55,335 nucleotides of DNA, taken from ANME-2 cluster archaeon (GTDB lineage: Archaea; Halobacteriota; Methanosarcinia; Methanosarcinales; Methanocomedenaceae). The stretch covers positions 1 through 55,335 of the forward strand of contig JAHYIS010000011.1 in assembly GCA_019429385.1 (NCBI GenBank), in the 5' to 3' direction. The translations under genes and the position numbers were made by a program. Positions 17,295 to 37,686 of the stretch are shown here, in pieces. The notes beneath the pieces are model-generated. The model was not told where the DNA came from, ran no database searches, and saw only the letters and a program-made list of their open reading frames with translations. Within the stretch, counting starts at the first letter, position 1. Every line of letters starts with the position of its first letter.

Positions 17295-19730
17295 TTATGC
17301 CCTGTACACCTTGACTATCATTTCATTTGCCAGGGCATTACCTGAAACGGGGTCAGCAGCAGTGTTATAGAACTGGTAATCATTGGTTCCGTTACCGTTT
17401 GCCACTTCACCCATGTTCCAGTGTCCAAACCCGTGCTGCATACCTACCACTTCAGGATGTATCCGGTCAGTGAGAAGCGCAGTACCTTTATCCTTGACAT
17501 TTTTTGTCTCGATCCATACTGGATCCCCGGTCCTGATGTTCAACCTTTCTGCAGTCTCAGGGTGAATTGCCAGGTAGTTGGAATGTTTCAATTCATCCAG
17601 CCAGATATTGTTCTGGGTTCTGACACCGGTATGAGATACTTCTTTCCAGTTTATCAGGTATAACGGATATTCATAGTCAGGTTTAATGTCTGCAGCCTTA
17701 TACTCGGGTATGGGAGGGATAGGGTCACCATTGGCGTCTTTTGTATTTCCTAATGTACCGGAATACAGTTCGAACTTACGGGTTGGGGTTTCAAAACCTG
17801 CATGATATCTGTCCCATATCATGACACCTATTGGTTTTCCATCTTTGTCATGAACAACACCATTCTCGTCCACATCTGATGAGCCTGAAAGACGGATTAT
17901 TTTGTCATACTTCTTGAATTTCGTACCTTCAGGATCGGTCCACGTGGCACCAGGCAGTTCCTTCAATTCCTCAAGAGTAATACCGGGGGCACCATTCTCA
18001 AGTTCTCTGCTAAGGTATTCCTCATAAACCAGATTATTAAAGAATAGGTTACCGTCTGTCTCACGTAATCCCAGGCGCCTGCCCAGCTCTATGATGAATT
18101 CGTATTCTACCGGCTGTCCGAACCGGGGTTCAATAACAGGCTGGCGCAGGCTTACCGACGGCCAGGTGGTCCAGTTATTGACCAGGTCATACCGTTCCAG
18201 GTAATGAGTACCGGGCAATACGAGGTCAGCCAGTTCGGCAGTTTCTGACATGTGTGTGTCCACAACAGCCAGGAATTCAAGACTCTTCATGGCTTCTATG
18301 ACATTTTCGGTCCCTGGAACTGACATCACCAGGTTCTGGTGCATAACAACACCGACCTTTGGTTGATATGGTCCGGTCCCTTTTTGCATAGTGTTCAATG
18401 TCTCAACTATGACCCCGGATTCATGAGCAAATGGATATTTGTCAGTACCGCCATCCAGCCTGGAATACTTTGATGGTGTGTACTTTACTTCCTGATGTAC
18501 ATTTCCACTCATATCAGGCAGCACAAGACCTCCCCGCACATCGAACTGACCGAGCAGACCGGTCAGGGCGACAATGGCCCTCATGGTCTGGAAACCATTC
18601 GAATGCTGGGTTACGCCAGACCATGCATCGATAATTACCGGCCTGGTATTACCCAGTTCCCGTCCCAGCCTCTCAATAGTACCTGCCGGAATACCGGTAA
18701 TCGATTCGGCCCATTCCGGGCTCTTATTCCTGACATAGTCAGCATACTCATCAAAACCAACAGTCCAGTGGTCTATGAAATCGTTATCATATAATCCCAG
18801 TTTAATGATGACATGACCCAATGCAAGGGCAAGTGCACCGTCCGTGCCTGGTTTTATGGGGACCCATTCATGGGCTTTTGAAGCAGTAAAACTGTGGTAC
18901 GGGTCTACAACCACCATCTGGGCCCCGTGCTGGATTCCGCGGATCATGGTTTGGGGCACATATCCCCATTTAACTGCAGAGAGAGGATTTGTACCAAACA
19001 GCAGAATGAACTTAGTATCCACGTTGTCTGTCAGTGGCCGCTGGTGCCCGACCATAGATTTGAATGCCGCCCTCCGGACTGCATCATACAGGTTCGACTG
19101 GTTATGGTAATTGGGAGTGCCATACAGGTTACAGAAATCCTGTTGTATATGAACAAAATTGTCATCATCACTGAACCATACCAGTTTATGGGCTTCACCG
19201 TTTTCCTTGAGTTCGGAAAGCTTCGTACTGATAAGTTCATAAGCTTCGGTCCATGTTATTTCTTTCCAGCCAGGGTCGATACCTTTCCCTTTTACAGGAT
19301 TGGTGCGTTTCATGGGTTTGGAAAGCCTGTCATGATCATACAGGTCCATAATGCTGGCGTTACCTCTGGGACATAATGCTGCTCCTTCATTTTTATGTTC
19401 TTCAAAATCTTCAGACACATTAGATACGCCCATAGGGTTATGGAGATTCGGTACTACTTTGAGGACCACTTTTTCATTCTCCACGGTCATGACATCGGCC
19501 AGTACTCCGGTCTGTCCGCCGCACATATTACAGACTGTAGGTATCCATTTGTGCGGCTGTTTCCGGGCAGGGGCGCCAGCTATCTTGTGACAGTCGATAC
19601 ACTCGCTACCCGCCATGGCAGGATCTAACAATGCACTACCAGCAACAACTGCTCCGCCTGTTGCTGCGGTAAGTTTCAGGAATCCACGACGTGTGATGTC
19701 TTTGGAAGTCACGTCCTTGAACTGTTTCAT
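17295..19730 (-). CDS. Molybdopterin oxidoreductase catalytic subunit, PsrA/PhsA-like, Tat-exported
   Basis: An 811-residue catalytic subunit of a CISM complex. The Tat signal is DITRRGFLKL (R14, R15), ending near AMAG. The mature N-terminus carries an unexpected CXXCH (C44-x2-C47-H48). The [4Fe-4S] site has C67, C70 and C120 (ALCPRGN), but the usual third cysteine is Thr74 (CNMCGGQTG). Molybdopterin-binding landmarks follow (LLFGTNPLSA, VVVDPYHSFTASKAHEWVPIKPGTDGALALAL) with a C-terminal beta-barrel (VWIETKNVKDKGTALLTDRIHPEVVGMQHGFG). The segment where formate dehydrogenases carry Cys/Sec reads NQSNLYDAVRRAA, with no cysteine. It is followed by PsrB- and PsrC-like genes on the same strand. 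The substrate, perhaps a sulfur, arsenic or other oxyanion, cannot be inferred. Confidence 0.88.
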   Translation of the reverse strand: MKQFKDVTSKDITRRGFLKLTAATGGAVVAGSALLDPAMAGSECIDCHKIAGAPARKQPHKWIPTVCNMCGGQTGVLADVMTVENEKVVLKVVPNLHNPMGVSNVSEDFEEHKNEGAALCPRGNASIMDLYDHDRLSKPMKRTNPVKGKGIDPGWKEITWTEAYELISTKLSELKENGEAHKLVWFSDDDNFVHIQQDFCNLYGTPNYHNQSNLYDAVRRAAFKSMVGHQRPLTDNVDTKFILLFGTNPLSAVKWGYVPQTMIRGIQHGAQMVVVDPYHSFTASKAHEWVPIKPGTDGALALALGHVIIKLGLYDNDFIDHWTVGFDEYADYVRNKSPEWAESITGIPAGTIERLGRELGNTRPVIIDAWSGVTQHSNGFQTMRAIVALTGLLGQFDVRGGLVLPDMSGNVHQEVKYTPSKYSRLDGGTDKYPFAHESGVIVETLNTMQKGTGPYQPKVGVVMHQNLVMSVPGTENVIEAMKSLEFLAVVDTHMSETAELADLVLPGTHYLERYDLVNNWTTWPSVSLRQPVIEPRFGQPVEYEFIIELGRRLGLRETDGNLFFNNLVYEEYLSRELENGAPGITLEELKELPGATWTDPEGTKFKKYDKIIRLSGSSDVDENGVVHDKDGKPIGVMIWDRYHAGFETPTRKFELYSGTLGNTKDANGDPIPPIPEYKAADIKPDYEYPLYLINWKEVSHTGVRTQNNIWLDELKHSNYLAIHPETAERLNIRTGDPVWIETKNVKDKGTALLTDRIHPEVVGMQHGFGHWNMGEVANGNGTNDYQFYNTAADPVSGNALANEMIVKVYRA

Positions 19731-24013: not shown

Positions 24014-25195
24014 CTAATGTTCTACCGGGTCCATGTTAAATATCCTTATCATCACTGTGAACATCAACACCGCCATTGCCCAGAACCCGACCACTACATT
24101 GAGCTCAAGTATGGTTGGAATATACACGACCAGTTCACCTAATGGCGAGATAGACATCCCGACCAGGATCAGGAATATCCTCTTAAGGAAGATCCCTCCC
24201 ACCACAAACACGGATGCAGCAGCAATCCATTTAATCGAGTTCTTGGTCCTGGGATGCAGGACAATGATAAAGGGTATCACAGCCGACAGCAGGATCTCTC
24301 CGTACAGTGAGAACGCGTAGGGTCCATTCTGTATGAAGTGGATCCCCAGGTGATGTTCGGGTTTTTGTGCATATGGCCAGACAGTAATCAGGATCTCGTT
24401 GAAAAGGAAGAATAGATCCACCGGTATTGCAATGGTCAATGCTTTTCTCAATGTCATAACAATAGCATATGGGTCACGGAACTTGATGTTCGTGTATTTT
24501 GGAAGCACAAGCGTAATAATAATTAGCAATGCCAGTCCGGAGGTAATGGCCGAAGATATGAACAACGGTGCCATGATCGCCGAGAACCAGGAAGGTCTTG
24601 ACTTGACGAGGCCAAACACCCATCCTGTGACCGAATGGACACTGATGGCCGCAGGCAATGAAACCACTGCCAGTGGAAATAGCCAGCGCATCCTCCTGGT
24701 CAGCAGAGCATACAGGTCTACACAACATAGTGCAGTATAACCGCCCAGGATCATGAAGTCAAAGAACATCATAGATGTGGTATTGGGTGACAAAAAAAAT
24801 CGGTAGAACCGTTCAGGATGGCCCAGGTCAGCGGTCACAAAGGCCATGGCCGTTACGGCACATACAAATGCCTGGATAACCCCGACCTTAAGCAGGGGTT
24901 CCAGCTTTTTCACACCGAACAGTTCCACACTGGATGCCACGATCAGGCCGCCGGCCGCCAATCCCACAAAAAATATGAAATTGATAATGTACAAACTCCA
25001 GCTGACCACGTTCCTGCTGCCTGTAACGATGAACCCTTCGGATAACTGCAAGTAGTAGGCAAAGAAACCCGATGATACCAGGAGCAGCAGGATGGCCACC
25101 CATCCATAGTACAGTTTGCTGCCTTTAAACAGCATATCCAGCTTGACCTCGGCTCCAAGAATAGTAATTGGTTTTAAGTTGAACATTTTCATCAC
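24014..25195 (-). CDS. NrfD/DsrP/HmeB-like membrane subunit
   Basis: A 393-residue polytopic NrfD-family protein with about ten TM helices. Landmarks are YYGWVAILLLLVSSGFFAYYLQLSEG, NFIFFVGLAAGGLIVASSVELFG, LGHPERFYRFFLSPNTTSMMFFDF and PAAISVHSVTGWVFGLVKSRPSWFSAIMAPLFI. The LGHPER and VHSVTGWVFG segments place it nearer DsrP/HmeB/ActC-type members than PsrC. It overlaps the upstream Fe-S gene by four bases. With the Fe-S protein and the membrane-anchored cytochrome it forms a J-O-P-like set without a catalytic Mo subunit, so it probably shuttles electrons between the quinone or methanophenazine pool and cytochromes. Confidence 0.88.
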   Translation of the reverse strand: MMKMFNLKPITILGAEVKLDMLFKGSKLYYGWVAILLLLVSSGFFAYYLQLSEGFIVTGSRNVVSWSLYIINFIFFVGLAAGGLIVASSVELFGVKKLEPLLKVGVIQAFVCAVTAMAFVTADLGHPERFYRFFLSPNTTSMMFFDFMILGGYTALCCVDLYALLTRRMRWLFPLAVVSLPAAISVHSVTGWVFGLVKSRPSWFSAIMAPLFISSAITSGLALLIIITLVLPKYTNIKFRDPYAIVMTLRKALTIAIPVDLFFLFNEILITVWPYAQKPEHHLGIHFIQNGPYAFSLYGEILLSAVIPFIIVLHPRTKNSIKWIAAASVFVVGGIFLKRIFLILVGMSISPLGELVVYIPTILELNVVVGFWAMAVLMFTVMIRIFNMDPVEH

Positions 25196-25974
25196 CCTAC
25201 ATAGTAAACTCTAGGTTTAGTTCCCAGGTCTTCCTTGAGTACCGTTACCCTCCTGGTGCGCAACAGGTATGATATCTCGCTGTCCGGGTCATTTATATCG
25301 CCAAATTTCCTTGCGCCCACCGGACACACTTCGGTACATTTCGTCGTCTTACCTTCACGGACAAGGTGGAGGCAGAAGGTACACTTCTCAACCACTCCCA
25401 CCGGTCTTATGGGCACATCAGGATTGATCTCATCTTCAGGAACTTCCGGTTTAACCCAGTTGAACTTCCTGGCCCAGTACGGGCAGTTTATCATGCACAT
25501 CCTGCATCCCAGGCACCTGTCATAGTCAACTACAACGATGCCATCAGGTTCCTTCCATGTGGCTTTTACCGGGCATGCCTGTGTGCATGGCGGGTTATCA
25601 CAATGATTGCAATGTGCCGGAAGATACCACTTGTCTTCCTTTGGTGCATCAGTATAATACTGGTCAGAGTTGAGCAGGTCAAACGAGCTCTCCTCCATCT
25701 CAAGTAACCTGATATATTGTATTCCTGATGTCCTGCCGATATTGTTCTCTTTGATGCATGCATACATACATCTTCGGCATCCGATGCACGTCTGAGTATC
25801 GATGGCCATGGCGTAATGGACCCCTTCCACAGGGGCCGGGTCATCATAATATTTTCCAACCTTTTCTACATTCCACGGTAGGTTGGACGTTATCATGGCA
25901 AGGGATTTGCCGCTCAAGGCAGCAACGCCACCCATTCCTGAAAGTTTTAAGAAATTTCGTCGTGATATATCCAT
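25192..25974 (-). CDS. DsrO/HmeA-like Tat-exported Fe-S protein
   Basis: A 260-residue protein with its own Tat signal (MDISRRNFLKLSGMGGVAALSG). Four [4Fe-4S] motif groups follow: CIGCRRCMYACIKEN, HCNHCDNPPCTQACPVKA, CLGCRMCMINCPYWA and KCTFCLHLV ... KCTEVCPVGARKFGD. The start at 25974 has GGGGTG upstream and places the RR motif correctly; the longer frame to 26004 does not. It would sit outside the membrane between the cytochrome upstream and the NrfD subunit downstream. Unlike the PsrB-like protein it carries the export signal itself, consistent with the absence of a catalytic partner. Confidence 0.9.
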   Translation of the reverse strand: MDISRRNFLKLSGMGGVAALSGKSLAMITSNLPWNVEKVGKYYDDPAPVEGVHYAMAIDTQTCIGCRRCMYACIKENNIGRTSGIQYIRLLEMEESSFDLLNSDQYYTDAPKEDKWYLPAHCNHCDNPPCTQACPVKATWKEPDGIVVVDYDRCLGCRMCMINCPYWARKFNWVKPEVPEDEINPDVPIRPVGVVEKCTFCLHLVREGKTTKCTEVCPVGARKFGDINDPDSEISYLLRTRRVTVLKEDLGTKPRVYYVG

Positions 25975-25988
25975 AGAAAACACCCCGG

Positions 25989-26708
25989 TTAATCCGGTCT
26001 CCATTTATTCCGATTCACAATCATCAATAATGAGACCAAAAAACTCAGGATCAATACTGTGATGAAAATTTTACCTGAAAAAATTACGGCTTGAGTATAT
26101 GGTTCATCATTACCTGGTTCCAGGAAATTTACTATTTCCGGCGGGTTCAGGGGAGGAGGCAGCGGGTAACCGATTCCAAGACCTACTTTGTACAGTTTCG
26201 GGTTATGCGGGTTATGACACCTGAAATCTGAACAACTGAACCGTCTACTTTCCAATTCTTCCACAGTTGCATTTTTATGTGAGGCATCAGTTACCAGGTT
26301 CAATTCTGGTTTGGATTTGCCATGGTCCCCGTATAACCACGTATCATATCGCTTCTGGTGACATTGGTAACATAATTTTGGGGACTCTTCAAATGGTATT
26401 AATTCTCCTGATAAAAGCCGCAATTTGCTTCTCTGGTCAAAATCATGGCATATAAAACAGCCAACCTGCCCTTCAAGGACTAACTTGTCATGGTATTCAA
26501 GTGATGTGCTATGGGGTATTTTCTCGTTTGTGGCAGTCCCGGGATCGTGACAAAAATCACATTGGAACGTGAATGGAAGTCTTCTGTTGATCAGTTCATC
26601 AGCTTTATTTGCTGGTTCTTCTGCAGAGGGCAGGTCTGCATAGGTCGGCCCAATGAAAACCAGGACAAGAATGATGAACGTTGACAATACAATGAATTTC
26701 TTGAACAT
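25989..26708 (-). CDS. Membrane-anchored tetrahaem-type cytochrome (one CX4CH site), DsrJ-like role
   Basis: A 239-residue protein with an N-terminal signal/anchor (MFKKFIVLSTFIILVLVFIG) and a C-terminal TM helix (VIFSGKIFITVLILSFLVSLLMIV). Between them lie three CXXCH sites (C50, C84, C113) and one CX4CH (C159-SDFR-C164-H165), an expanded haem motif known from tetrahaem cytochromes. Several free histidines (HSTSLEYH, GDHGK, SHKN) may be axial ligands. It is the first gene of the operon cytochrome / Fe-S / NrfD, 14 bases before the Fe-S gene, matching the order of DsrJOP. Assignment to that family is by context, not by homology I can test. Confidence 0.8.
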   Translation of the reverse strand: MFKKFIVLSTFIILVLVFIGPTYADLPSAEEPANKADELINRRLPFTFQCDFCHDPGTATNEKIPHSTSLEYHDKLVLEGQVGCFICHDFDQRSKLRLLSGELIPFEESPKLCYQCHQKRYDTWLYGDHGKSKPELNLVTDASHKNATVEELESRRFSCSDFRCHNPHNPKLYKVGLGIGYPLPPPLNPPEIVNFLEPGNDEPYTQAVIFSGKIFITVLILSFLVSLLMIVNRNKWRPD

Positions 26709-29094: not shown

Positions 29095-29808
29095 TTACTT
29101 GGCAGGCTTACCTACAAATTTTACCAATAATAGACTTATTTCAAAAAATAGTATCAATGGCGCAGCAATGATGACCTGGCTGATGACGTCTGGAGGTGTT
29201 ATCATTGCAGATATTACCAAGAGGCCAATATAAGTGTGATATCTATACATCACAAGTGTGCTCCGTTCCACCAGCCCATTACGTACCAAGATTATAATCG
29301 CTAATGGAAATTCAAATACCAGTCCGAATATGACTGTGGTAAATAACACAAAAGAGATGAATTGTGAAACAGAGTACGTGGCCATCACACCGGCTGAGGC
29401 CGCATTCTGGAACAGGTAATTGAGAAAAAAGGGGAGCATCAGGAAATATGCATAGCCTGCACCCAACATGAAAAGGATAAAGGCAATCATTCCAGCAAAC
29501 AAAATTGAGAACCACGACCTTTTAACTTCGAACCGTCCTTTTAACGCTGAATAAATGTAATATGATACCAGCGGGAGTGTGAGCAGTGCACCTGCAATGA
29601 GTGCTACTTTGACTTTCAAGAGCATAACCTCAGGAGGGGATAGGTAGATGACCCTGGCTCCCTCTGGGAGGATATTATCAATTATGTTTTTTATAAATCC
29701 GCCCGTGAATGGAAAAGATATTATGAAACCGCAAACTAGAACTAGTACAAACAGGATTAATTTCTTTTTTAGCATTACCAGGGTGATACTAATATTTTCA
29801 TAGTCCAT
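29095..29808 (-). CDS. tatC: TatC paralogue lacking the N-terminal glutamate motif
   Basis: A 237-residue six-TM protein of the TatC family, the twin-arginine signal receptor. It keeps the central features (FEVKRSWFSILF, LGAGYAYFLMLPFFLNYLF), the FGLVFEFPLAII segment with the glutamate equivalent to E. coli TatC E170, and TPPDVISQVI. The usual N-terminal HxxELRxR motif is replaced by TLVMLKKKL, so the glutamate equivalent to E15 is missing. The second TatC gene lies 100 bases upstream on the same strand and shows the opposite pattern. The window encodes three Tat substrates (17295, 25192, 34921). Confidence 0.88.
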   Translation of the reverse strand: MDYENISITLVMLKKKLILFVLVLVCGFIISFPFTGGFIKNIIDNILPEGARVIYLSPPEVMLLKVKVALIAGALLTLPLVSYYIYSALKGRFEVKRSWFSILFAGMIAFILFMLGAGYAYFLMLPFFLNYLFQNAASAGVMATYSVSQFISFVLFTTVIFGLVFEFPLAIIILVRNGLVERSTLVMYRYHTYIGLLVISAMITPPDVISQVIIAAPLILFFEISLLLVKFVGKPAK

Positions 29809-29908
29809 TGTATATCTTAAGTCCTAATATGCTGTATATTACATAAAATTATGGAATAGCTATTGATTCTCTTCATTACGGTTATATGTGTAGGGTAATA
29901 AATACTTG

Positions 29909-30643
29909 TCAAAAATACCTGCTGATGAATAAACTGAACTCAAACAGGATCACAAGGAAAAGTGCTGTTATCAATTGTGACATCCCTGTAATATCGGGTG
30001 CAACAAAAATAGCAAAACCGATGAGGATACCATAGACGATCATCCGTTTATCCTTTAATTGCTCAGCTTTTACCAGTCCTGATTTGATGGAAATTACCAT
30101 TAACAGGGGAAGCTGGAATAGCAGGCCGAACATTATCATCATCGTTGTCATAATTGAGAATGTATTTCGTACTGATATTCCTGAGGTTGCCACATCTTCT
30201 GAATAATAGAACATGTAATTGAATATCAAAGGTATGACTATGAAAAAAGCTATCCCCATACCTATAAAGAAAAGTAACATCGAAGGAGGGACTACCAATA
30301 ATGTGAATCTTTTTTCGTTGGGAAACAGTCCTTTTTGAATGAATACGAAAAATTCATACATGAATAACGGAAACACAAATGCAATAGCAATTGCCAGGGA
30401 TAGGACCAATCGTGTCAGCATCCACTCCATTGGACTGTAGATAACCATTTCTATCTCAGGAGGGAACAGGTAGGCCCACATCGTACCAATAAGGTCTCCG
30501 GTAAAGGGGAATGTACCCATAAGTACGATGATTAGAGCAGCCACAACTATGAGCATCCGCTGGCGAAGCTCTCGTACATGTTCCAACAGGGGCAATTCCT
30601 GGTCGCCTGGTACATTGTTCATGTCTAACCTATCGTTATGCAT
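29909..30643 (-). CDS. tatC: TatC paralogue with N-terminal motif but Gln in place of the second glutamate
   Basis: A 244-residue TatC protein. The N-terminus carries LLEHVRELRQRM (E25, L26, R27), matching the signal-recognition motif of canonical TatC, and FPNEKRFTLLVVPPSMLLFFIGMGIAFFIVIPLIFNYMF is typical. In the segment where E. coli has FGVSFEVP, this protein reads FGLLFQLP, so the second key glutamate is glutamine. The following paralogue has that glutamate and lacks the first motif. The two may work together as a heteromeric receptor. It is divergent from two tatA genes, forming one compact locus. Confidence 0.9.
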   Translation of the reverse strand: MHNDRLDMNNVPGDQELPLLEHVRELRQRMLIVVAALIIVLMGTFPFTGDLIGTMWAYLFPPEIEMVIYSPMEWMLTRLVLSLAIAIAFVFPLFMYEFFVFIQKGLFPNEKRFTLLVVPPSMLLFFIGMGIAFFIVIPLIFNYMFYYSEDVATSGISVRNTFSIMTTMMIMFGLLFQLPLLMVISIKSGLVKAEQLKDKRMIVYGILIGFAIFVAPDITGMSQLITALFLVILFEFSLFISRYF

Positions 30644-30804: not shown

Positions 30805-31008
30805 ATGCTTGGCTCAACTGAATTGTTGCTTATTTTTGCAGCAGCGTTATTATTGTTCGGACCCGACAAATTGCCGGAGATCGCTCATTCCCTTGGACGT
30901 TTGATGGGGGATTTTAGAAAGGCGATGCGAGAGGCTGAAAACCAGTTATCGGTTTCTGAGGTAAAAGAATCAATTGAAGAAACAATTACTATGGCAAAGA
31001 TAGATTAA
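30805..31008 (+). CDS. tatA: TatA/E-type translocase component 1
   Basis: A 67-residue TatA-family protein: N-terminal TM helix (MLGSTELLLIFAAALLLF), the FGPDKLPEI hinge and an amphipathic helix (AHSLGRLMGDFRKAMREAENQ), then a short acidic tail. TatA subunits assemble at the TatC-substrate complex to allow passage of folded proteins. The gene is divergent from the tatC pair and 31 bases upstream of a second tatA. No good Shine-Dalgarno sequence is evident; the ATG fits the family N-terminus. Confidence 0.9.
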   Translation: MLGSTELLLIFAAALLLFGPDKLPEIAHSLGRLMGDFRKAMREAENQLSVSEVKESIEETITMAKID

Positions 31009-31039: not shown

Positions 31040-31324
31040 ATGATAATGCCCGGACCAATGGAATTGACACTGATAGTCGGTATAATAGTCCTGCTCTTTG
31101 GAGCTACCAAACTTCCTGAACTTGCCAACGCACTTGGCAGGTCAACGGGTGAGTTCAAGAAAGCCCAGAAGGAATCAGAATTATCCTTGAAGGAACTCGA
31201 TAACAACAAAAAACCGCAGGAAAGATCCAAGCTCCAGCAGTCAGCCGAGAACCTGGGGATTTCAATTGAAGGCAAGACTGACGACCAGCTGCTTGATGAG
31301 ATCGAAAAGGCCACTAAGAAATAG
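31040..31324 (+). CDS. tatA: TatA/E-type translocase component 2
   Basis: A 94-residue TatA-family protein: TM helix (MELTLIVGIIVLLF), FGATKLPELANALGRSTGEFKKAQKE hinge and amphipathic helix, and a longer lysine/glutamate-rich tail (LGISIEGKTDDQLLDEIEKATKK). The tail resembles that of other archaeal and bacterial TatA/B proteins; with two copies present, one may fill a TatB-like role. The first in-frame ATG is at 31040; the family motif would also allow the later ATG at MELTL. GAGGTAAA lies upstream. Likely one transcript with the preceding tatA. Confidence 0.9.
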   Translation: MIMPGPMELTLIVGIIVLLFGATKLPELANALGRSTGEFKKAQKESELSLKELDNNKKPQERSKLQQSAENLGISIEGKTDDQLLDEIEKATKK

Positions 31325-32130: not shown

Positions 32131-34122
32131 ATGAAGACGGGAGTATTTTTTTGCACATGCAACAAAACATCATCCATTGCATATAACAATCTAAAGAAAG
32201 ATATCAATGTTGATATAATCGAAATCCATAACACTCTTTGTCAGAATGAAGGATTAGCATATATAATAGAAGACATCCGCAGAAAAGATCTGGATAGAAT
32301 ATTTATTGGCTGTACTTTCAAGAAACCGATATTTAACGAAATTGTTAATGAATCGGTTGACTTGGACTTTTTGAATTTGCGGGAGCACTGCGGATGGGTC
32401 CATGAACAAAAAGATGCAACCGAGAAAGCAAGACGTTTGCTGAATGTCGCGTTAAACACAGAAAAGAAATCACTTGATACGACCAGATTAAATGCAGGTA
32501 AGGATATACTGGTTACTGGAACGCGTTTTCTCGTTCCAGTTATTGAAAAATTGACCGGACTTGCCAATGTAAGTCTTTTATTAACTGAACCTGACCACAG
32601 AATGTTGCGATATAATTTACCCCTCTATGTGGGGTCCATACGAAGCATCAATGGCCAGATTGGTGATTTTACTGTGGAAATATCTGCACATCAACCTGTG
32701 AATTTTAAAAGATGCATTTTATGTGGTCGCTGTGTTCAGGTATGTCCGAAAGGTGCAATAGACTTTTCTTTAAAAATTGATAATGCATGTGACCAGTGTG
32801 GTAAATGCATTGATGCCTGTCCGGTGGAAGCTATCAATTTCCAGAAAAATGAGGCTGAGCCTTTGATATGTGGACAGATAGTGGTAACTGAACCGGGATG
32901 GGAGCATACAAAAAAATTAGGCGTGCATATCAATGAAAATGGAGATATTTCAGGGGCCCTGATTGCAGCAATGGATGCCATCATAAATATCGGAGTAGTT
33001 AAAAAATATAAGATACTGGAAGTTAATGATAGATGCGCATCCGGAAAAAGTGAGATTATCGGATGTACTTTATGTGAATTGGTCTGTCCGCATGATGCCA
33101 TTAGCCGTACAGGTGACAACATTATTTTCAACGATGTATCATGCCTGGGCTGCGGGGCTTGTACAGCTGTTTGTCCAATTTCAATTCCAAAATTACATGC
33201 GTATCCTGACAATTCGATTTATGCTCAGATAGACAGTTTGTTAACTGGAAAAGAGAGACTTTCAAATGAAATAATCATGTTCACCTGTGTCGAACAGGGA
33301 CAACAAGTATTGGATGAATTGGGGAAACAACACATAACCTATCCACCCGTACTGCCAATATTGATTCCCTGTATCAATGCTGTTCATGAAGCACACATTC
33401 TCTATGCTTTTGAATCGGGGGCAGATGGGGTAGTTCTTCTTGGATGCGAAAATTGCAAACATAAAATCAATGATAATTCTCCTATGAATGTCATCAAAAC
33501 TATTTTGAACGCAGTTGATTTTAATGAAAAATTTGCAGTCATTCAGGCTGATCCGAATCATCCGGAAGCTCTTGTGCATGAACTATACGATTTTGTCGAT
33601 AATCTCCCATCCTGCGAAAAGAGAAGGAAGATGGTAGCAGGGATCAAAGGCGATAATAAGAGATTTGTCTTACTTGATTTGATTGATAATCTGCCTGGTA
33701 AGTCCGGGGATTTTGTCCAAAGAGGTGATATTCCTTTTGGAAATGTTACCATTGATGGTGAATGTATTATGTGCAATGCATGCATGAATATGTGTCCGAC
33801 AGAGGCATTAAATAATAGAAGTGGGAAGATTTATTTTAATTATTCATTGTGCATTGCATGCGGGTTATGCGAGAAAGCATGCCCGGAACATGTTATCAGG
33901 CTTGAGAAGATACTTGATATAGCACGATTGTCTCAGCGCGAGACCATACTGGCAGAACCTGAACAGATCAATTGCCTGGCATGCAACAAACCATTTATTA
34001 CAAAAGGGGCTATAGCGCGTGTTAGTGATAAATTAGGACCCGAAAATGAAATAATAGAATTACTTTATTATTGCCAGGACTGCAGGCCGATAAAGGCGTT
34101 TGAAAAAGGATTGTTAAAATAA
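32131..34122 (+). CDS. HdrA-like polyferredoxin without flavin motif, with MvhD-like domain
   Basis: A protein of about 663 residues. The N-terminus resembles the HdrA N-domain (MKTGVFFCTCNKT, DRIFIGCTFKKPIFNEIV, LREHCGWVHEQKDA). Where HdrA has the flavin-binding GGGVTG, this protein reads LVTGTRFLVPVIEKL, so the GxGxxG fingerprint is lost and the long FAD/NAD region is missing. Fe-S motifs are CILCGRCVQVCP, CDQCGKCIDACP, CTLCELVCP (short), CLGCGACTAVCP, CIMCNACMNMCP and CIACGLCEKACP. An MvhD-like domain (FTCVEQGQQ, LLGCENCKHK) lies between the fourth and fifth. ATG 32131 gives the best alignment with HdrA; ATG 32110 is in frame. Probably an electron wire for the formate dehydrogenase encoded downstream. 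Its end overlaps the torD-like gene convergently by nine bases. Confidence 0.75.
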   Translation: MKTGVFFCTCNKTSSIAYNNLKKDINVDIIEIHNTLCQNEGLAYIIEDIRRKDLDRIFIGCTFKKPIFNEIVNESVDLDFLNLREHCGWVHEQKDATEKARRLLNVALNTEKKSLDTTRLNAGKDILVTGTRFLVPVIEKLTGLANVSLLLTEPDHRMLRYNLPLYVGSIRSINGQIGDFTVEISAHQPVNFKRCILCGRCVQVCPKGAIDFSLKIDNACDQCGKCIDACPVEAINFQKNEAEPLICGQIVVTEPGWEHTKKLGVHINENGDISGALIAAMDAIINIGVVKKYKILEVNDRCASGKSEIIGCTLCELVCPHDAISRTGDNIIFNDVSCLGCGACTAVCPISIPKLHAYPDNSIYAQIDSLLTGKERLSNEIIMFTCVEQGQQVLDELGKQHITYPPVLPILIPCINAVHEAHILYAFESGADGVVLLGCENCKHKINDNSPMNVIKTILNAVDFNEKFAVIQADPNHPEALVHELYDFVDNLPSCEKRRKMVAGIKGDNKRFVLLDLIDNLPGKSGDFVQRGDIPFGNVTIDGECIMCNACMNMCPTEALNNRSGKIYFNYSLCIACGLCEKACPEHVIRLEKILDIARLSQRETILAEPEQINCLACNKPFITKGAIARVSDKLGPENEIIELLYYCQDCRPIKAFEKGLLK

Positions 34123-34743
34123 CTCGTTTAATGTTTGCCTGTCAAATAAAAGAAAACCTTTGGTGAACTTTGCTATCCCTTGATAGAAATCAGACTTATC
34201 ACTGGCAAAAAGCTCATCACAAAAATCCGGCACCCATTTTAACAGATGTTCATCTATGAACCTTTGTTGTAACTCAAGATACGTGTTATCGTTTTCATGG
34301 AGCAATTTTTCACCAAGATAATTCATAAATCTCAATTCAAACGCGATATTGTCTTCAGGTTCGGAATAATCATTACTCTCAACACCGGCTTCGCGGTAAA
34401 ATTGCTTTAATTCCAGAAGTGATGGTCCGCGCATTTTATTATCTCTGTACATTGATTCGTAAGGTGGTGCCGGAAGTCTACCTGGTCCAATAAAAAGGGT
34501 CGTGAACTCTTCATGGAGTTTTTCATATACTGTACCCACATCTTTGCAGTTCATCATATATTCATTTAACAGGTTACCCCCCTCCTCTGTGTAAGAATTT
34601 ATATTACGTAGACCTGAAGGTATGAGAAATGTACCTTTCACCAGATCAATAGCAAGCTGTTTCGGAGGTTCTTCAAGGAACATACGATATAAGAAGGCAT
34701 AGATGTTATTCCTGAATTGCATACATCCTTTTATTTTGTCCAT
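34114..34743 (-). CDS. TorD/DmsD-family molybdoenzyme chaperone
   Basis: A 209-residue all-helical cytoplasmic protein of the TorD/NarJ/DmsD family. The signature region is FTTLFIGPGRLPAPPYESMYRD, followed by LELKQFYREAGVES and ELRFMNYLGEKLL. Such chaperones bind the twin-arginine signal of a Mo enzyme and hold it until cofactor insertion is complete. The likely client is the formate dehydrogenase subunit transcribed divergently 177 bases away. The PsrA-like enzyme at 17295 has no chaperone nearby, so this one might serve both, but that is speculation. Confidence 0.85.
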   Translation of the reverse strand: MDKIKGCMQFRNNIYAFLYRMFLEEPPKQLAIDLVKGTFLIPSGLRNINSYTEEGGNLLNEYMMNCKDVGTVYEKLHEEFTTLFIGPGRLPAPPYESMYRDNKMRGPSLLELKQFYREAGVESNDYSEPEDNIAFELRFMNYLGEKLLHENDNTYLELQQRFIDEHLLKWVPDFCDELFASDKSDFYQGIAKFTKGFLLFDRQTLNELF

Positions 34744-34869: not shown

Positions 34870-34920
34870 GTAATAACAAACAATTAATAATTGAATTTAG
34901 ATATTAGGGGGTAGTTGTAT

Positions 34921-37686
34921 ATGATATCTGAAAAACAAAAGCAATTTCAATTAAAAATAACAAGACGCACATTTGCCAAAGCAACTGTTGCCCTTAGCGC
35001 CACTGCTACATTGGGTGGGTATGCAGGACACAGAGATTTTTTTAAGAACGATATAATTAGACTGGCAAGTGCTGCCAATGATACACAAGGAATTGACGAA
35101 ACACTTATCAAGACTATATGTTCACACTGTGCGGTAGGTTGCGGTGTACTTGGAAAAGTAGAAGACGGAGAACTAATCGGACTGGAACCATGGGAAGATC
35201 ATCCAATCAATCATGGCGGGATGTGTTCCAAAGGAACAGCAATAGCTGAAATGGTCAATTCTGAACGCCGTCTAAAATATCCGATGGAGAAAGTGAATGG
35301 AAAGTGGGTTCGAAAATCATGGGACGACGCTATCAATAAAATCTCCGCCAAGATGACAGAGATCAGAGATACCTACGGCCCGGACTCTGTGATGTTCATA
35401 GGGTCAGCGAAAATGACCAATGAGGAATGTTACCTGTTCAGGAAGATGGCCGCTTTCTGGGGAACCAATAACGTTGACCATCAGGCCAGGATCTGCCACT
35501 CGACAACAGTTGCAGGGCTTGGCAATACATGGGGTTTCGGTGCCCAGACCAATAATGTTAATGATATGCGTCACACAAAATGTGCATTCTTTATAGGATC
35601 TAATGCTGCCGAGGCACATCCTGTAAGTATGCAGCATTTCCTTACAGCCAAGGATAGGGGTGCCAAACTCATTGTAGTGGACCCCAGATTTACCAGAACA
35701 GCTGGAAAAGCTGATATTTATGCCAGAATGAGACCGGGAACAGATATACCAATATTGCTCGGGATAGTCAATGTCCTTGTGAATAATGGCTGGCATGATG
35801 TAGAATTTATCAAGAACAGGACAATAGGATTCGAGGATCTCTGGGAGATTGCAAAAGATTACACTCCTGAAGTTGTAGAAAATATATCATGGGTTCCTGC
35901 CGATAGCATCAGATTGATCGCAAGGACAATGTACGAGAACAAACCTTCTACTCTTGTCTGGGCCATGGGCCAGACCCAGCATAGCGTTGGGACGAATAAT
36001 ATCCGTATGGATGCTATAGTAAGTCTTGTTCTCGGTCATGCGGGTATGTCAGGTGGAGGTGTCCAGGCCCTCAGAGGACATGATAATGTTCAGGGTTCTA
36101 CAGACATGTGTATCCTTGCGCACAGTCTGCCCGGTTATTACGGTCTTTCAGATAAAGCATGGGGGCACTGGGTCGATGTTTGGAATACAAAATCCCCGGT
36201 AACAATGGATTGGATGAAAGGTAGGTTCGACCTTCAAAATGATTCAACACTCATGAACAAAAATGGATTCACCGTTGCACGGTGGTATGAAGGTGCAATA
36301 CTGCCTGAAGATCAGATCGATCAGCCCCATAATATTAAAATGGTCATTGTTTGGGGTCATTCTTTGAACTCCATTACAGAGATGAAAAGAATGAAAGAGG
36401 CGCTGGAAAAAGTTGATCTGGTAGTAAGTGTGGATCCCCACTCCACCATTGCATCAGCGCTTCCCGAACGTGATAATGGAATCATTGCACTACCGGCATC
36501 CACAGTGTTCGAAAAGGACGGCACGGTGACAACAACCGGAAGGCAGGTCCAATGGAGGAATAAACTGGTTGAACCCAGATTTGACAGCAAACCAGATGGA
36601 GAGATCATACAAATGCTGACAACAAAACTGGGCTTTGGTGAACACTTTACCTATTCCGGACCTGAGGAAATCGTAAGGGAATGGAACCTGGGCATGGGTG
36701 CCATTGCCTTGGTAGGACAGACACCTGAGAGGCTTAAAAGGCAGCAGGAACATTGTGCGGACTTTGATGTGGAAACGACCAGGGCAACGGGTGGTCCATG
36801 TAAAGGTGAATACTATGGTATGCCATGGCCTTGCTGGACACCAGACCATTGCGGAACTCCGATTTTATACGATGTCAGCAAACCAGTAAGCGATGGGGGA
36901 CACGATTTTAGAGCCAATTGGGGTACGACGGTCCCGGATAATCCAACCGGGAAGCATATAGGTGATGATCTGCTTCGAGGTGACAAACCTGTTGCTCAGG
37001 TGGGATATGCTTATGATCTTACCCTGAACACATCACGAGAGGCACTGGCCAGAGGCGATCCCCCAACGGGTCGTGCAAGGGCAAGGTTATGGGCATGGAA
37101 CCTGCCTGACCCTGTACCAATACATAGAGAACCCATTGAAAGCCCGAGACCGGATCTTATTGAGGATTATCCCACATATGATGATGTTCCCTTCCAATAT
37201 AGAGTCCCGGCACCGTATATAACCAACCAGACTGCACGAAAGCACATTGTTGATAAGTATCCTGTTGTGCTTTCTACAGGAAGACAGGTTGAGCATATGG
37301 GTGGTGGAGCCGAGACAAGAAGCTGCCCATACACGGTTGAACTCGCGCCTGAGATGTATGCGGAGATCAGTCCGGCACTGGCAGCAGACATCGGGGTCAA
37401 ACACTGGGACTTCGTCTGGGTCGAGACCTTACGGGGCAAGTGCAAAGTGAGGGCAAATGTGACTAAAGCAATGACGAAAACACCGGAGCAAAGCCATGAA
37501 GTAGCCTTCATGCCGTACCACTGGGCAGGCATCTTTGAAGGAAAATCTTATGGGGACAGGTACCCGCCCGGGACTGCAGAGCTGGCTCTTGGCGATTCGG
37601 TTAATATCATCTGTGGCGATGGCTATGACAGAAGTATGCAGATGCAGGAAACAAAGGTTTGTCAATGCAAGATATATCCGGCATAG
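34921..37686 (+). CDS. Periplasmic-type formate dehydrogenase alpha subunit (FdnG/FdoG-like), Cys variant
   Basis: A 921-residue molybdopterin/tungstopterin oxidoreductase. Tat signal ITRRTFAKATVALSATATLGG. [4Fe-4S] ligands CSHCAVGCG with a fourth Cys in GMCSKG. The active-site segment VDHQARICHSTTVAGLGNTWGFGAQTNN matches the FdnG pattern where selenocysteine precedes His; here it is Cys192-His193. Cofactor segments include FIGSNAAEAHPVSMQHFLTAKDRGAKLIVVDPRFTRTAGKAD and MGQTQHSVGTNNIRM. A C-terminal domain (STGRQVEHMGGGAETRS) completes the protein. ATG 34921 is chosen over TTG 34915 because GGGGG lies about nine bases before it. It oxidises formate or reduces CO2 on the outer face. Genes for Fe-S, membrane and cytochrome b subunits follow. 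Confidence 0.9.
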   Translation: MISEKQKQFQLKITRRTFAKATVALSATATLGGYAGHRDFFKNDIIRLASAANDTQGIDETLIKTICSHCAVGCGVLGKVEDGELIGLEPWEDHPINHGGMCSKGTAIAEMVNSERRLKYPMEKVNGKWVRKSWDDAINKISAKMTEIRDTYGPDSVMFIGSAKMTNEECYLFRKMAAFWGTNNVDHQARICHSTTVAGLGNTWGFGAQTNNVNDMRHTKCAFFIGSNAAEAHPVSMQHFLTAKDRGAKLIVVDPRFTRTAGKADIYARMRPGTDIPILLGIVNVLVNNGWHDVEFIKNRTIGFEDLWEIAKDYTPEVVENISWVPADSIRLIARTMYENKPSTLVWAMGQTQHSVGTNNIRMDAIVSLVLGHAGMSGGGVQALRGHDNVQGSTDMCILAHSLPGYYGLSDKAWGHWVDVWNTKSPVTMDWMKGRFDLQNDSTLMNKNGFTVARWYEGAILPEDQIDQPHNIKMVIVWGHSLNSITEMKRMKEALEKVDLVVSVDPHSTIASALPERDNGIIALPASTVFEKDGTVTTTGRQVQWRNKLVEPRFDSKPDGEIIQMLTTKLGFGEHFTYSGPEEIVREWNLGMGAIALVGQTPERLKRQQEHCADFDVETTRATGGPCKGEYYGMPWPCWTPDHCGTPILYDVSKPVSDGGHDFRANWGTTVPDNPTGKHIGDDLLRGDKPVAQVGYAYDLTLNTSREALARGDPPTGRARARLWAWNLPDPVPIHREPIESPRPDLIEDYPTYDDVPFQYRVPAPYITNQTARKHIVDKYPVVLSTGRQVEHMGGGAETRSCPYTVELAPEMYAEISPALAADIGVKHWDFVWVETLRGKCKVRANVTKAMTKTPEQSHEVAFMPYHWAGIFEGKSYGDRYPPGTAELALGDSVNIICGDGYDRSMQMQETKVCQCKIYPA

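Follow-up and report, generated by a model that had tools for sequence, protein, structure and literature searches.

The window, by which we mean the whole 55,335-nucleotide stretch of ANME-2 cluster archaeon DNA analysed here, carries two tatC genes, both on the minus strand: tatC-A (29909..30643, 244 aa) and tatC-B (29095..29808, 237 aa). This locus raises the question of why the tatC genes of Halobacteriota come in pairs, which would be explained if the two proteins were the parts of a divided receptor for twin-arginine signal peptides. The question touches on two issues that are open in the field, namely the number of signal sites needed by a Tat core and whether its asymmetry is essential. 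The original prediction was that the two paralogues had undergone complementary loss of two signal-binding glutamates and would act together.

Both open reading frames match the Pfam profile PF00902 above its cut-off (146 bits for TatC-A, 139 bits for TatC-B), and a search with this profile found them to be the sole TatC proteins of the 2.4 Mb genome, encoded separately and with no two-domain fusion like the haloarchaeal TatCt. TatC-A also exceeds the cut-off of NCBIfam TIGR00945 (150.8 bits); the top NCBIfam match of TatC-B is TIGR01912 TatC-Arch, with a score of 180.4 bits that lies slightly below the cut-off of 192.6. The closest named relative of TatC-B is a protein from an ANME-2 cluster archaeon (85% identity). 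Single-chain AlphaFold (AF2) models of the two proteins (pLDDT 79.6 for TatC-A and 85.8 for TatC-B) have solved TatC structures as their best matches, and the query-normalised TM-scores to Aquifex aeolicus TatC (4b4a) are 0.75 and 0.81, respectively. TatC-B is a TatC by homology and fold, yet, judging from its residues, it is not a complete signal receptor.

The residues concerned are numbered here as in E. coli TatC; the reference used differs from MG1655 at three residues, none of them at a site on which the typing of A and B depends. TatC-A carries the motifs LLEHVRELRQR and FGLLFQLP, and in the alignment it retains H12, E15, R19, F94, L99, E103 and an aromatic residue at Y100, that is, the full twin-arginine signal-peptide site, with Gln (its own Q177) in place of E170. 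TatC-B carries the motifs ISITLVMLKKKL and FGLVFEFP; it is without H12, E15, R19, F94, L99, Y100 and E103 and keeps E170, T208, D211 and Q215. The paralogues and their motifs were as predicted, and the division is wider than had been claimed, since F94, L99, E103 and the aromatic residue at position 100, all lost in TatC-B, belong to it as well.

The TatBC-MdoD structure from E. coli shows distinct contacts for the two signal arginines: the first reaches E15 via water and is stacked under F94, and the second is held by a salt bridge to E103 and lies against Y100. The pocket for the consensus Phe consists of F94, L9, H12 and L13 (PMC13323110). F94A/E103A abolishes signal binding; E170A is transport-inactive and traps assembled TatA, so that the translocon is locked in the assembled state, and E170 was judged to lie outside initial signal binding (PMC10092561). 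The earlier view of both glutamates as signal-binding was therefore too simple, because the arginines are contacted by E15/F94 and by E103, and E170 is not needed for initial binding. T208 and Q215, both kept by TatC-B, are part of the polar cluster that seats TatB E8 in E. coli. It should be noted that B-type TatC proteins of Methanosarcinales have an invariant Glu about eight residues ahead of the lost HxxELR motif (MDYENIS; residue 4 of TatC-B), which is a possible replacement contact.

The division was followed in 217 extracted TatC domains (98 A, 92 single-domain B, 13 TatCt domain 1 and 14 TatCt domain 2). H12, E15, R19, E103 and Q170 are present in 98/98 A types, and position 94 is Phe in 97 of them and Tyr in one. 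H12 is absent from all 92 single-domain B types, in which F94 or Y94 and E103 never occur together. Residue 170 of these B types is Glu in 79, Asp in one and Gln in 12 (mostly from Archaeoglobales), so that retention of E170 by B fails as a universal rule, and residue 15 is still Glu in 13/92. Complementary glutamate loss thus holds for the pair in the window, and the A half of it (E15 with Q170) for every A type, but it is not universal in B, and the more stable mark of B is the absence of H12 and of a joint F94/E103. T208, Q215 and P221 are more conserved in B (0.98, 0.96 and 0.98) than in A, where position 208 is Ser or Thr in 85/98, position 215 is Gln at 0.71, and Pro is not the commonest residue at 221. 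The second domain of TatCt has diverged (E170 to D, N, L or M, and Q215 to M), and the scaffold residues thus vary in some B domains. An apparent loss of D211 in A turned out to be an alignment shift: the PDxT loop of A, with its Asp present in 97/98 sequences, is one residue longer, so that the D211 region is not comparable between A and B. In B types at four loci of Methanoperedens relatives, the first external loop is enlarged by an insert of about 50-70 residues; this insert contains many Ile, Ser and Asn residues and is missing from other B types.

A and B co-occur obligately in the phylum. In a survey of 246 Halobacteriota genomes, each at least 90% complete, 140 had a TatC above the cut-off, and 138 of these contained at least two TatC domains; the two exceptions (G199 and G250) are drafts, and no closed genome in the survey had a single TatC type. 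Together with two genomes from a comparison of nearer relatives (G044 and G028), four genomes have only one type (A in G044, G028 and G250; B in G199), all of them multi-contig drafts in which a targeted profile search did not find the partner. Genomes that would do with one type are thus essentially absent, in agreement with the prediction of two specialised, mutually dependent TatC types, and the survey rules out chance or a single-lineage oddity as the source of the division, which spans methanogens, ANME archaea, Archaeoglobales and haloarchaea. In the 96 records with both A and B in which both partners were read, residue 170 pairs Gln with Glu or Asp in 77 and Gln with Gln in six, and 13 are TatCo with TatCt; in some Archaeoglobales no TatC carries E170. 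In Archaeoglobaceae the two genes are not linked, and in Methanoperedens they are found on separate contigs, so that neither group gives evidence of co-regulation. One genome of the same order as the window (G054) has two full A+B pairs, with Asp at position 170 of one B.

How are these proteins related to the TatCo and TatCt of haloarchaea? An unrooted tree of 74 rows was calculated under the C20 mixture model and again with the 16 diagnostic columns removed. A and TatCo lie on one side of a branch with support 100/98, and B and both TatCt domains form a group (100/99, and 100/97 without the diagnostic columns). The state of the signal site changes once on the tree; residue 170 is constant within A and has changed three times among single-domain B. 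On this phylogeny, TatCo belongs to A, and TatCt consists of two fused B domains that arose by internal duplication and fusion within B. The original prediction had likened the pair to a TatCt split into separate genes; this analogy does not survive, because both TatCt domains group with B, and TatCo falls in A. The placement of both domains in the B clade likewise rejects the reading of TatCt as an A+B fusion, and an AU test of a grouping of A with the TatCt domains gave p = 0.017. Each TatCo and TatCt set of haloarchaea has one A and two B, three TatC domains of which one has the signal site. The tatC cluster of halophilic archaea was reportedly found to be essential for viability in earlier work. 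In Haloferax volcanii, TatCt is listed as essential (PMC7305310). In most haloarchaea read, the TatCt linker contains two predicted transmembrane segments; in one family (f27), a short charged linker without a predicted transmembrane segment joins the two B domains. Haloarchaeal TatCt linkers (L118-L129) share a conserved, cytoplasmic-looking sequence (DPTAIDxxxLDAAGVRAAPPEAF...MDDGDxxKAQAILDRFD).

The two tatA genes that had been noticed alongside are indeed present, both on the plus strand, divergent and upstream of tatC-A. The first (30805..31008, 67 aa; PF02416, 60.7 bits) has an FGPDKLPE hinge resembling LGPQRLP of E. coli TatB, and the second (31040..31324, 94 aa; PF02416, 57.7 bits) has an FGATKLPE hinge resembling TatA. 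In both, Glu occupies the equivalent of TatA/B position 8, as in almost all TatA proteins read, which leaves no variation to correlate with residue 170. Types with an FGP hinge and an FGA hinge recur as a pair in many relatives. Archaea are not known to have a TatB; the FGP type might act as one.

The observed division of residues, the joint occurrence of A and B, their separate clades and the composition of TatCt from two B domains lead us to infer that the Tat system of Halobacteriota probably uses an obligate asymmetric TatC assembly, most plausibly with one A and two B (A1B2) and a single signal-binding protomer; the physical heteromer, its stoichiometry and the absence of signal binding by B are the conjectural elements of this proposal. 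A (TatCo in haloarchaea) would be the sole subunit with a cytoplasmic pocket for recognition of the twin-arginine motif. B would be a scaffold protomer, blind to the motif, that seats TatA/TatB helices on the polar-cluster face of TMH5 and usually also supplies the membrane glutamate E170. The binding residues are deduced from bacterial TatC, however, and B could bind a signal in some other way. One A and two B would form an asymmetric TatC trimer with a single signal site at a fixed position, in which the two B protomers complete the cup around A and hold the TatA-family helices. The ratio of 1:2 is suggested by the two domains of TatCt and by the trimeric bacterial core, and the reading, if true, would explain the odd two-domain TatCt of haloarchaea. 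Published work describes TatC as an obligate oligomer and shows that a covalently linked TatC dimer has activity (PMC5102672). A stricter version of the proposal, which we hold only tentatively and with slightly less than even confidence, is that the A1B2 trimer is hard-wired throughout the phylum with exactly one protomer reading the twin arginines, and that TatCt is a fused B2 that fixes the ratio, the whole serving the purpose proposed for the exchange of TatA and TatB in bacteria.

Another oligomer size or A:B ratio is possible, and a heteromer of different composition (an AB dimer, A2B or a mixture), with Q170/E170 rather than the lost pocket as the key asymmetry, must be weighed. The constancy of Q170, which is invariant in A and never changes within that clade, speaks for it. 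The three changes of residue 170 in single-domain B speak against it, as the pocket asymmetry never breaks, and so do the two B per A that haloarchaea obtain through gene fusion; we regard it as unlikely. That A and B form two independent homomeric translocases specialised for different substrates, as in Bacillus, with B reading a different signal, would fit the presence of two tatC and two tatA genes, the unlinked loci of Archaeoglobaceae, and the 12 B types that have Gln at position 170 as A does. Nevertheless, B lacks the residues through which E. coli TatC touches the RR motif in the solved structure, separate loss of the two systems would be expected and yet no closed genome has only one type, and both tatA genes adjoin A, in the window as well as at most of the Methanosarcina loci that were read, instead of there being one for each TatC. 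Two independent translocases are quite improbable.

A similarly low probability is assigned to the reading in which A is a complete TatC by itself and B is an accessory or regulatory protein, such as an assembly or quality control factor, outside the translocation core. A holds the whole signal site and scores above the TatC cut-off, and those Archaeoglobales without E170 in any TatC can evidently dispense with that residue of B. However, the strong constraint on the face of B that would bind TatA/B (T208 and Q215) is what would be expected of a core protomer, and the nearly perfect co-occurrence and the listing of TatCt as essential in Haloferax also speak against this reading.

Parts of this picture were already known, namely the TatCo/TatCt pair of haloarchaea and the separation of B-like from A-like proteins by NCBIfam TIGR01912 (TatC-Arch) and TIGR00945 (tatC), whose names are plain TatC and mention neither paired use nor the loss of the signal site. 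Among the open-access papers searched, a set with few subscription journals and without the key Haloferax papers, none was found to describe one TatC partner as having lost the signal site throughout a phylum. TatCo/TatCt is the orthologous pair: TatCo belongs to the A clade and has both the signal site and Q170; TatCt has two B domains per chain, whereas the ANME-2 B is a single-domain protein and the orthologue of both halves. Bacillus likewise has two TatC genes per genome, and its TatAdCd and TatAyCy are functionally distinct isoforms with selective secretion (PMC3827258). Unlike these isoforms, B appears from its sequence to have no signal site, and the A/B pair is not lost independently.

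A further comparison is with the bacterial core. A cryo-EM study (2026) has shown three TatC in the bacterial core complex, with one inferred signal site, and the native E. coli core is likely TatA1B2C3 with one usable site (PMC13323110). Its asymmetry was proposed to result from one TatA and two TatB placed in a symmetric TatC trimer, a single-site model for which its own authors state that further work is needed (PMC13323110). The archaeal proteins have the TatC fold in common with this core (E. coli, Nitratifractor; PMC13323110), and they would work in a similar way provided that a TatC trimer has, as a rule, a single signal site. In bacteria, one TatC carries all sites and the asymmetry comes from TatA versus TatB, whereas in Halobacteriota two tatC genes would encode it. 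The A/B division looks like a natural experiment, in which the site has been kept in one TatC and removed from the other.

The expectation of Tat clients nearby is in line with three probable clients, open reading frames of the window with twin-arginine leaders. One on the minus strand (17295..19730, 811 aa) is recognised by its leader motif TRRGFLK. A second, a 4Fe-4S protein (25192..26004, minus strand; PF13247 and TAT_signal PF10518), has the leader SRRNFLK. The third is a molybdopterin oxidoreductase (34915..37686, plus strand; PF00384, PF01568 and PF04879) with the leader TRRTFAK, and it adjoins the gene for a NarJ/TorD-type chaperone (34114..34743, minus strand; PF02613, 113.9 bits).
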